Below are positions 11,854 to 13,749 of a stretch of DNA of 45,521 nucleotides, piece after piece. How positions within the stretch are numbered: the first letter of the stretch is position 1; each line of letters opens with the position of its first letter. The translations under genes were made by a program, and so were the position numbers. This DNA comes from Fibrobacter succinogenes (GTDB lineage: Bacteria; Fibrobacterota; Fibrobacteria; Fibrobacterales; Fibrobacteraceae): contig CACXMH010000011.1 in assembly GCA_902768715.1 (NCBI GenBank), positions 1-45,521 of the forward strand. The letters run 5' to 3'. Under the pieces are notes generated by a model. The model ran no database searches and was not told the DNA's origin. It worked only from the letters and a program-made list of their open reading frames with translations.

Positions 11854-11948
11854 TAACAAAAAATGCGAAAAAACGAGATTTTTCCGAAAAATGTAACCAT
11901 ATGTTATCACCGAAGGTGGCCGTAAATTCCTAGAAATCACATTTGCGG

Positions 11949-12275
11949 ATGAAGAGGAAAAACAAAATAGAGAAGACTTTCGATGAGAGTATCGCCTATT
12001 TGCTGAGAAAGGGCCGTGAAAAGCTTGGCCACTCTCAGGACCTCGTCGCCCAGGAAGCGGGCATCAGTCGGATTACCCTAGGGAAATGGGAGCGGGGCGA
12101 AAAGACTCCGAATTCCTTTGATCTGTACAATGTGCTCAAGGTCCTCAAGTGGGAACCTGAAGATTTTTGGACTGAATTGGGCAAGCATTTTGAGCCGACG
12201 GCAAAGCCCCTGCGGATTGCCGCCGAACGAACCAAAATAAAAGCCTATATCGAACAGACCAAGAAAAAACGATAG
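11949..12275 (+). CDS. Small XRE-type helix-turn-helix regulator
   Basis: The product has 108 residues from the ATG at 11949; a TTG two codons earlier is possible. The N-terminus is very basic. Residues about 20-70 form a Cro/C1-type domain: GREKLGHSQDLVAQEAGISR then ITLGKWERGEKTPN, followed by a helix ending in EDFW. The C-terminus is short and Lys-rich with no sensor domain. It probably binds DNA as a dimer; its targets are unknown. An imperfect palindrome centred on CATATG (about 11896-11911) lies upstream and could be its operator. Its 3' end overlaps the convergent small basic gene by 31 bases. Confidence 0.82.
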   Translation: MKRKNKIEKTFDESIAYLLRKGREKLGHSQDLVAQEAGISRITLGKWERGEKTPNSFDLYNVLKVLKWEPEDFWTELGKHFEPTAKPLRIAAERTKIKAYIEQTKKKR

Positions 12276-12472
12276 CATAAAGGAAAATCCCCCGCGTCGG
12301 CGAGGGATTTCTTGTGCTTCAAGTTCCGGTTGTACTTCGTCTTGTCGCGGACCACCCTGGTCCGTAACGTGGCTCCGTTCTGGGAGCCGTCTATGCGTAG
12401 CGCTCGCATTCTTGCGCTTTCTGTTGCGGCTTCGGCAACCTTGCCCGCCGCTTTCGCTCTGTTTTTAGCCAT
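12245..12472 (-). CDS. Small basic protein, possible ArfA-type alternative ribosome rescue factor
   Basis: The product has 75 residues. The start at 12472 has the best ribosome-binding site in the window (AAGGAGG, 6-7 bases) and TATATT at 12493-12498. Residues 35-53 (TLRTRVVRDKTKYNRNLKH) resemble the core of E. coli ArfA, roughly R-x-R-V, a basic run, then K-x-x-Y-x-R-x-x-K-H. From residue 55 the frame passes through an 11-bp hairpin followed by T-rich sequence (12285-12310), and the last 17 residues look unlike protein. Transcripts ending there would lack a stop codon, as in arfA and brfA mRNAs, whose products are made only when trans-translation fails. Two more hairpins lie inside the gene. 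The function is inference. Alternatively it is an ordinary small basic protein with a misplaced stop. Confidence 0.62.
   Translation of the reverse strand: MAKNRAKAAGKVAEAATESARMRALRIDGSQNGATLRTRVVRDKTKYNRNLKHKKSLADAGDFPLCYRFFLVCSI
12285..12310 (-). terminator. Terminator-like hairpin inside the small basic gene
   Basis: On the minus strand AAATCCCTCGC pairs with GCGGGGGATTT (one G-U pair) around loop CGAC, followed by TTCCTTT. It lies before the stop codon of the 75-residue frame and just past the stop of the convergent HTH gene. It could serve both genes. Confidence 0.55.
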
Positions 12473-12492
12473 AGGGGCCTCCTTAAGGGGCA

Positions 12493-12498
12493 AATATA
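12493..12498 (-). promoter_or_regulatory. -10 element (TATATT) of the small basic gene
   Basis: TATATT lies 20 bases before the ATG at 12472. The predicted leader of about 14 bases is filled by the AAGGAGG site. The gap is shared with the divergent tilS operon. Confidence 0.4.
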
Positions 12499-12537
12499 AA
12501 TTATTATTTTTAGGCAGTAAAGGGGCCAAGTTTTCTT

Positions 12538-13749
12538 TTGTACGACTCCATCGCAGATAGTATTCGCCGTCATGGTTTCAAGCGCCTGCTGCTTGCAGTT
12601 TCGGGCGGTCTGGATTCTATTTGCCTAGCGCATTATTTTATTTGCAATAAAGCGGCATTGTGCATTGAATGGCTAGGGATTGCCCATGTGCATCACGGGC
12701 TACGGGTCGGAACGGCAGACCGCGATGCCGCATTTGTGGAAGCTTTCGCAAAAACGCACAACGTTCCGTTTTTCTTGAAGAAACTGGACGGCGAGGCACT
12801 CAAGGCCGCCGAAGGTTCGCTGGAAGAAAACGCACGGGACGCAAGGTATAAAGCGCTGGAAGAAATATTCAACGAGACAGAAGATCCCCGCCTGCGCGGG
12901 GATGACAATAAGGACGTCATCGTCACTGCTCATCATGCAGGCGACCAGGCGGAAACCATGTACATGCGGCTCCATCGCGGAACGACGCTGGCGGGACTCC
13001 GTGGAATTCAGGAATTTCGCGTTCTTAGCAATAGCCAGGGCGATGCGGGCGGACAGCACTTAGGAGCATGCTCCTTAGTGCGCATGGCCACCAAGGTGGG
13101 GCTGGCGTCTGAAGCCACGCTAGAGGGGGTGATGGAAGACCGTGCAACGGGCTGCAATCAGGGGGAAACCTCCCCCACCTCGCGCCTATTCCGTCCTTTC
13201 CTTTCCATCACCCGCGAAGAGCTTCTCGCCTACGCCCGCGAAAACAATCTTGAATGGGTGGAAGACGAAAGTAATGCCGACGTGAATTTTGCCCGAAACA
13301 GGATTCGGCACGAGATGTTGCCACGGCTGGAGCGTGAATGCCCCGGTGCGGCGGCTCAGCTTTGCCGGATTGCCGCCCTTGCGGACAGGGCGTACGGGAA
13401 GGTGATGGAGGTGTGCGATGGGGTATTCGGGACATGCCTGCGCGAGGATGACATTCCTCGTGTCTCAATCACTCTCGACAAAAAGAAGCTCCGCAAGGTG
13501 CTGCTGGCCCACGAGAACACCGACCTTTCCGAGATGTTTCGGCTGTGGCTTTCGGAGAAGGGCCTGCGATTCCCTATCGGGTTCTTTTACTGCCCCAAGG
13601 AGCCTGCCTGCGTCAAGATTCCCCACCACGCCGTTTACCGCAGGCGCGCCATCGTAAAAATCGGCCAGTCAGTCCGAATTTGCGAATTCGACAGCCCCGA
13701 AGAAGCCGAGATTTTTGTATCTTGCGGAAAGAAAAATAAAGGATTATAA
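12538..13749 (+). CDS. tilS: tRNA(Ile)-lysidine synthetase with repeat-derived insertions
   Basis: The product has 403 residues. It adds lysine to C34 of the AUA-reading isoleucine tRNA. The PP-loop motif SGGLDS is at about residues 22-27, followed by HVHHGLR and [35 protein letters not shown] and [21 protein letters not shown] complete the N-terminal signature; a C-terminal TilS domain follows. The only possible start in frame is TTG at 12538, because TAG lies upstream. Two stretches look inserted: residues about 115-125 are encoded by a GATCCCCGC...GCGGGGATGAC repeat (12883-12906), and residues about 160-215 (DNA 13015-13180) contain a 26-bp near-palindrome at 13056-13081 and a GGGGGA/TCCCCC hairpin at 13161-13176. 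Both keep the frame. The stop overlaps the ftsH start (TAATG). Confidence 0.93.
12883..12906. repeat. Palindromic GATCCCCGC...GCGGGGATGAC element inside tilS
   Basis: The element is nearly identical to intergenic copies at 39052-39075 and, with CTC for CCC, at 20981-21004 and 21017-21040. Here it is translated as [10 protein letters not shown] within TilS. Confidence 0.75.
13056..13081. repeat. 26-bp near-perfect palindrome inside tilS
   Basis: The arms GCACTTAGGAGCA and TGCTCCTTAGTGC match except for one base pair. It lies in a segment that has no counterpart in ordinary TilS proteins. Confidence 0.65.

Follow-up and report, generated by a model that had tools for sequence, protein, structure and literature searches.

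The locus studied here raises the question of why a small bacterial gene should carry a terminator-like hairpin within its reading frame, ahead of the stop codon, and whether its product is a factor that rescues stalled ribosomes. The window, meaning the whole stretch of DNA that was analysed, comprises 45,521 nucleotides of a Fibrobacter succinogenes contig. Our answer, to which we give a probability of roughly 0.8, is that the gene encodes a rescue factor of the ArfA type, translated from a non-stop message. No experiment has been performed, and the claims about rescue activity, about the 3' ends of the RNA and about the partnering release factor are all inferences; what can be supported, by sequence comparison alone, is the anatomy of the gene, its pattern of selection and a chain of kinship.

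Anatomy and conservation of the gene in Fibrobacter

The candidate frame runs for 75 codons from an ATG start (12245..12472, minus strand) and has the Shine-Dalgarno sequence AAGGAGG 5-6 bases 5' of the ATG (12478..12484, minus strand), confirming the basic 75-residue ORF and very strong ribosome-binding site reported in the initial annotation. AAGGAG precedes the start codon in nearly all homologues. Further upstream lies a promoter-like TTTACT-17-TATATT (12493..12521, minus strand), which rests on a consensus match only and whose TAATTTATATTT stretch is also found in close relatives. A PP-loop gene (12538..13749, plus strand; PF01171, E 5e-50), presumably of the TilS type, diverges upstream and an HTH_3 gene (11943..12275, plus strand) converges from the other side, so the candidate gene stands alone. 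Codons 36-53 (12314..12367, minus strand) encode an ArfA-like core, LRTRVVRDKTKYNRNLKH, which was recognized by profile comparison and alignment, with a DUF7230 match over residues 39-56. Codons 54-63 form the in-frame, terminator-like hairpin GAAATCCCTCGC-CGAC-GCGGGGGATTTT (12284..12311, minus strand), which is followed by CCTTTATGCT (12274..12283, minus strand), a U-tract remnant that reads CCTTTTTT in many relatives. The post-hairpin codons (12245..12283, minus strand) are unconserved and end in a chance TAG. The working product is expected to consist of approximately residues 1-64.

The hairpin has 10-12 pairs (about -17.6 kcal/mol) and occupies nucleotides 162-189 of the ORF, and the stop codon begins 36 nt further on. 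A terminator-like hairpin before the stop codon had been claimed previously and was indeed found (12311-12284, minus strand). The accompanying claim, that 17 residues of translated terminator follow it, was right in that the hairpin is itself translated (residues 54-63), but only 12 residues (64-75) come after it. Folding of the hairpin region surpassed 200 of 200 dinucleotide shuffles (z -3.94). A scan of the window returned 2 terminator-like matches versus 1.5 expected from shuffles, such that a single match is not above chance; this hairpin is beyond chance because it is conserved, with presence in 66 of 68 loci, retention of its pairs and silent co-variation at paired sites. Among 35 ORFs of the window that served as an admittedly thin control, a terminator lay near the stop codon in just 2, in both cases 3' of it.

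By tblastn (E below 1e-19), the gene was located in 66 of 80 genomes of the genus, at 68 loci. Two genomes carry 2 copies, with one second copy at E 2.5e-10. Among genomes of good quality (completeness of at least 90% and contamination of no more than 5%), 35 of 40 have the gene. It was not found by tblastn, nor with the wider profile A4, in the near-complete genomes G003, G009, G029, G032 and G037, and hence the genus can do without it. The named copies are all from Fibrobacter except for two MAG contigs, one of Bacteroidales (L141) and one of Clostridia (L143). Both of these homologues are on contigs under 4 kb; L141 looks like misbinned Fibrobacteraceae DNA and L143 like phage DNA.

The protein is conserved as far as KHKKSLADAGDFPF, with unrelated tails beyond. 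The family hairpin is encoded ahead of any in-frame stop in the 66 loci noted above, a count that includes L068 although its contig runs out before any stop. The exceptions are L035, with one stem mismatch, and L027 (G002:C76:70812-72548), where an unrelated inverted repeat, AACCCCGAAAGTTG..CAACTTTCGGGGTT, replaces the hairpin near the contig end in what we regard as an insertion or assembly fault. In L055 (G005:C1:682410-683840), an in-frame insertion, KSLGFCYGLKSLADAGDFPF, separates KHKKSL from the hairpin, which is kept 27 nt further on. L067 (G036:C15:60956-62326) is a diverged second copy in one Fibrobacter genome; it has an in-frame hairpin with compensating bases and an N-terminal half (AKETKRQRAERI) similar to that of phage copy L196, and may be a phage-derived copy that acquired the hairpin.

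For codon tests, 66 loci could be anchored (all but L055 and L067), and after removal of L027 and L068, which were too short, and of duplicates, 59 distinct sequences were used. Core codons gave pS 0.507 and pN 0.098 (pN/pS 0.19), hairpin codons pS 0.281 and pN 0.048 (pN/pS 0.17), tail codons 10-19 pS 0.668 and pN 0.704 (pN/pS 1.05), and tail codons 20-29 pS 0.705 and pN 0.736 (pN/pS 1.04). Protein constraint therefore stops at the hairpin. From core to hairpin, pS drops from 0.51 to 0.28. Stem codons are frozen despite the availability of synonyms (Ser TCC, 59/59; Ala GCG, 58/58; Gly GGG, 55/55), and loop codons are variable (Ala GCC/GCT/GCA/GCG; Asp GAT/GAC). An accidental ORF was ruled out by conservation together with the codon tests, and a functional full-length tail was ruled out by the lack of constraint on the tail.

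Silent variation follows the pairing. At the paired third bases of codons 55 and 62, AAA/GAT (A-U) occurs 23 times, AAG/GAT (G-U) 22 times and AAG/GAC (G-C) 13 times, AAA/GAC is never seen, and one further sequence has GAA/GAC, an A-C mismatch. Standard pairs fill 98.2% of pair cells in 57 sequences, a percentage slightly raised by exclusion of L027 from alignment A3 before counting. The covariation score was reached by none of 500 shuffles; pairs changed on both sides were not above shuffles in these 57 sequences (2 vs 1.3). Because related sequences are not independent, the covariation is to be taken as support and not as a probability.

Beyond the hairpin, the in-frame stop is reached after a mean of 21.7 codons in 63 distinct tails, compared to 18.5 (sd 2.5) in shuffles and to 25.2 and 25.4 codons in the other two frames, and none of these comparisons gave any sign of a preferred stop position. 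The spread of distances is narrower than geometric, probably due to several loci having the same convergent neighbour. Six loci (L010, L011, L017, L022, L025 and L039) have much the same post-hairpin tail (IQAVxGYLPxAILP), and in five of them the end of a convergent frame lies shortly past the hairpin (L017 is too short to test); this likeness, too, probably reflects a common neighbour gene.

Such neighbours suggest a plainer account, in which the hairpin terminates transcription of the convergent gene, the downstream frame is accidental and the protein is made normally, ending at TAG. The stop of the HTH_3 gene of the window is about 9 bases short of the hairpin as read on the opposite strand, and 52 of 65 loci have a convergent frame, 90 codons or longer, with its end between -40 and +200 nt from the hairpin, as judged by a raw ORF count and not by gene calls. 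The 13 loci without such a frame nevertheless keep the hairpin, its stem is coded within the frame of a conserved protein, and tails vary from 2 to 78 codons after DF across loci, all of which renders this account very improbable. The window hairpin may still serve, or be common to, the convergent HTH_3 gene.

Homologues outside the genus and in viruses

The non-stop reading that we prefer can be examined further in more distant relatives. Clear homologues were found in only 5 of 87 other Fibrobacterota genomes (G139, G144, G147, G150 and G080). Profile A4 matched these genomes with E-values of 5.6e-24 to 2.2e-12, which are flattered, given that A4 was built partly from the five homologues themselves. 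The genus-only profile A1 matched G139, G144 and G150 at 2.5e-23 to 1.9e-14 and G147 at only 0.0017; G080 was not matched by A1 at E <= 0.1 and was picked up with DUF7230 at 0.0019. All five homologues have an in-frame hairpin before the stop. Those of L144 and L145 are variants of the Fibrobacter hairpin, and those of L146, L148 and L175 are unrelated to it in sequence (TCCTCGAA/TTCGAGGA, AACGGCCC/GGGTCGTT and AAAAGGGCC/GGGCCCTTTT, respectively). L145 has just 41 residues to the end of the hairpin region, and the N-terminal half is accordingly not a strict requirement. Several weak matches in the phylum (L149-L155) look like chance. In Bacteroidota, a DUF7230 scan at E <= 0.01 picked out 4 of the 395 genomes, and the cut-off was exceeded in no case: L185, whose frame has diverged, closes with an ordinary stop, G167 is the same genome that harbours L141, and L184 and L186 have no such core in the frames inspected.

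The initial annotation had envisaged a non-stop message and had proposed that relatives be searched for a hairpin before the stop. That search was positive both within the genus and in the five homologues outside it, and the idea itself gains support from the end of constraint at the hairpin, the random stops after it and the unrelated hairpins of distant homologues.

The same protein, with the same function, could also be made if the hairpin were an RNase III cleavage site and not a transcription terminator, the message being stop-less in either case. E. coli ArfA comes from an RNase III-cut mRNA (PMC4245945). The stem of the hairpin is long, with 10-12 pairs and no interruption, and the U-tract of the window is weak (CCTTTATG), with a T-run that is interrupted by CC and then A. 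However, most loci have T-runs of 5-7 in the 8 bases 3' of the hairpin, and long T-runs make classic terminators of the divergent hairpins of L146 (TTATTTTTTTT) and L175 (TTTTTCTTTT). Cleavage by RNase III is therefore held to be unlikely, if still worth keeping in view. As it alters only how the message is cut, our confidence in it overlaps with that in the main reading, and the confidences do not sum to one.

Small genes with the same core also occur in viruses (L191-L197, L211-L217 and L182), among them large rumen phage contigs, the longest of 248 kb. The core was detected on 14 viral contigs (7 by the family alignment and 11 by a phage member, with 4 overlapping); together with Pseudoalteromonas J2-1, Campylobacter CJLB-10, Staphylococcus qdsa001 and the phage-like Clostridia MAG contig, these make up 18 viral copies. 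All 18 have an ordinary stop 3-24 residues after KH, and none has a terminator-like hairpin within -60..+40 nt of that stop. In 3 of the first 7 copies, the next frame starts a few bases before the stop codon. Homologues that end near residue 55 with a normal stop had been named in advance as grounds for refutation; they do exist, but are exclusively viral (18/18). Their normal stops show that the factor can do without the hairpin, which leaves the cellular design intact. It is possible that the viral copies are always-on rescue factors. A further phage-like contig (L176, G049:C34:18000-26869, and L147) has many small same-direction genes, with upstream frames that repeat a similar leader, and one of its genes encodes a diverged relative with KHKK and ends in an ordinary stop.

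Relationship to ArfA and to DUF7230

In Pfam, the window protein matched only DUF7230 (PF23876), with an E-value of 2.8e-4 and 21.4 bits, which is under the 27-bit cut-off. DUF7230 matched 28 of 37 family members; the relative L145 scores 26.5, and viral L211, L215 and L216 exceed the cut-off. Neither the window protein nor any of the 37 members matched PF03889 (ArfA) in Pfam, and an NCBIfam search with the window protein returned no match. Formal membership of PF03889 is thus unmet, with none of the 37 members matching and none of 80 genus genomes over the cut-off. PHROGs 2701, 18092 and 6310, all of unknown function, were matched at 5.9e-6, 5.1e-5 and 1.7e-4, respectively. A tblastn search of plasmids and phages with the window protein gave no match.

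Direct comparison with ArfA is weak, whether by hhalign with E. coli ArfA (2.6%) or for the family against an eight-sequence ArfA profile (20%, P 0.0011). A 51-aa protein of Pseudoalteromonas phage J2-1, annotated as ArfA in its record, matches both ArfA (1.1e-10) and DUF7230 (1.5e-6) over their cut-offs, and was matched by the family profile (P 4.7e-9) as well as by the ArfA profile (P 1.3e-8). In the case of viral L215, the match is to DUF7230 at 2.9e-10 and, under the cut-off, to ArfA at 1.7e-4. Joint alignment yields one core, RxRV..(DN)K..YxRK.KH, in which ArfA has three extra residues (GKGS turn); the KGKGSY stretch is absent from all aligned family members, which have a three-residue gap there. 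We conclude that, to the extent that sequences can establish it, the core is linked by homology, via the phage proteins, to the mRNA-channel segment of ArfA. The weak point of this kinship is that the common part is short (~24 residues) and basic. The register read by eye in the initial annotation (RxRV, YxR and KH) was recovered by profile comparison, although the direct score is weak. The profile search against ArfA that it recommended produced no Pfam or NCBIfam ArfA match, but phage proteins bridge the families.

No meaningful PDB match was obtained for the window protein or the family profile, and ArfA structures were matched by the bridge protein only. ArfA-type peptides become ordered on the ribosome. 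ArfA residues 31-48 sit in the mRNA tunnel, and ArfA cut at Asn47 still works and shorter forms do not (PMC5378476). In the joint alignment, Asn47 of ArfA aligns with K55 of the family, where the hairpin starts. A Lys-His pair common to BrfA and ArfA contacts 16S U534 (PMC6881298). Across 37 family sequences, R39, Y47, R49 and K52 are invariant and R37 and H53 are conserved in at least 90%, with K52 and H53 forming the counterpart of this pair.

A basic RNA- or ribosome-binding protein with a different job, whose terminator overlaps the frame end merely through tight gene packing, would fit with the 'unknown function' of the nearest Pfam family, with the many things that basic peptides bind and with the weakness of direct ArfA similarity. 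Packing leaves unexplained the lack of a preferred stop, the constraint that ends at the hairpin and the new hairpins at the same place in distant relatives, and the bridging phage protein has an ArfA domain over the cut-off. A different job for the protein consequently seems quite unlikely to us.

Ribosome rescue in Fibrobacter and the proposed mechanism

tmRNA was over the cut-off in 68 of 80 genus genomes and SmpB was present in 75 of 80. ArfA and ArfB were over the cut-off in none of the 80, weaker ArfB matches being mostly in RF1/RF2-sized frames, and RqcH was found in none of the 80. The GGQ domain of ArfB is absent from the window protein (Pfam and NCBIfam). Without the window gene, and within the scope of ArfA, ArfB and RqcH, these cells have trans-translation but no recognisable backup.

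We propose that RNA polymerase would stop at the hairpin, leaving a message without a stop codon, and that the ribosome would reach the message end after approximately codon 64. With trans-translation working, the stalled product would be tagged and degraded; with trans-translation failing or saturated, the ~64-residue protein would accumulate. Its basic RxRV-DK-YxR-KH segment may then go into the mRNA channel left empty in a stalled ribosome, and recruitment of a release factor, RF2 being the likeliest, would allow the peptide to be released. For phage copies, which have an ordinary stop, synthesis would not depend on the state of trans-translation.

The family resembles ArfA (PF03889; E. coli YhdL) in size, in its strong basic core RxRV..K..YxR..KH, in co-existence with tmRNA/SmpB and in a message that ends before the stop codon, by design only in the case of the window gene. 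It differs from ArfA in the lack of a direct PF03889 match, in the missing KGKGSY, where it is three residues shorter, in its N-terminal half (AKES..MR..RI.GS.NGATL) and in its host, which belongs to Fibrobacterota as opposed to beta/gamma-proteobacteria. We know of no non-stop message for ArfT. ArfT of Francisella is a small factor through which release factors are brought to non-stop ribosomes (PMC8012679); the window protein is likewise small, and release-factor recruitment is proposed for it as well. B. subtilis BrfA has an in-frame terminator (terminator-like in the window), a product of ~62-64 residues, a Lys-His near the C-terminus and the same trans-translation control as we expect here, and the published description presents it as distinct in evolutionary terms and almost confined to Bacillus (PMC6881298). 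DUF7230 (PF23876) and PHROGs 2701, 18092 and 6310 have the core V..DK..Y.RK.KHK in common with the window protein, but their function is unknown and the viral members examined have an ordinary stop and no hairpin.

In a survey of >15,000 genomes, ArfA was reported only from gamma-proteobacteria, a subset of beta-proteobacteria and the B. subtilis group, and none of the 1,956 Fibrobacterota-Chlorobiota-Bacteroidota genomes had arfA (PMC11633108). Phage-borne ArfA has already been annotated in pelagiphage HTVC027P (gp30), where it was identified via its PF03889 domain and not via the shorter window-type core (PMC12753301). No literature on DUF7230 was found, and no such factor was described in the accessible literature on Fibrobacter ribosome rescue, with most subscription papers and all preprints outside the coverage of both searches. 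We propose a new ArfA-related, non-stop-controlled family in Fibrobacterota, for which no such factor is known, that is not a formal member of PF03889 and is tied to tiny phage proteins. A broader hypothesis, plausible enough to state yet somewhat likelier to fail than to hold, is that ArfA, DUF7230 and several tiny phage families form one rescue superfamily. Phages would keep it always on with a normal stop soon after KH, and in Fibrobacterota the stop would have been replaced by a terminator more than once, with unrelated hairpins, thereby creating a sensor of failing trans-translation.

If our reading is true, Fibrobacter gains a backup that was apparently missing before, non-stop self-control recurs in distant phyla, and DUF7230 and several phage protein families acquire a testable function. 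Cellular copies with a hairpin and viral copies with a stop would then offer a naturally occurring test of why the non-stop message persists. As a separate observation on the trans-translation genes of the genus, two genomes have tandem tmRNA genes, two to three of them passing the Rfam cut-off, at G011:C23:43557-44980 and G030:C17:30318-31214.
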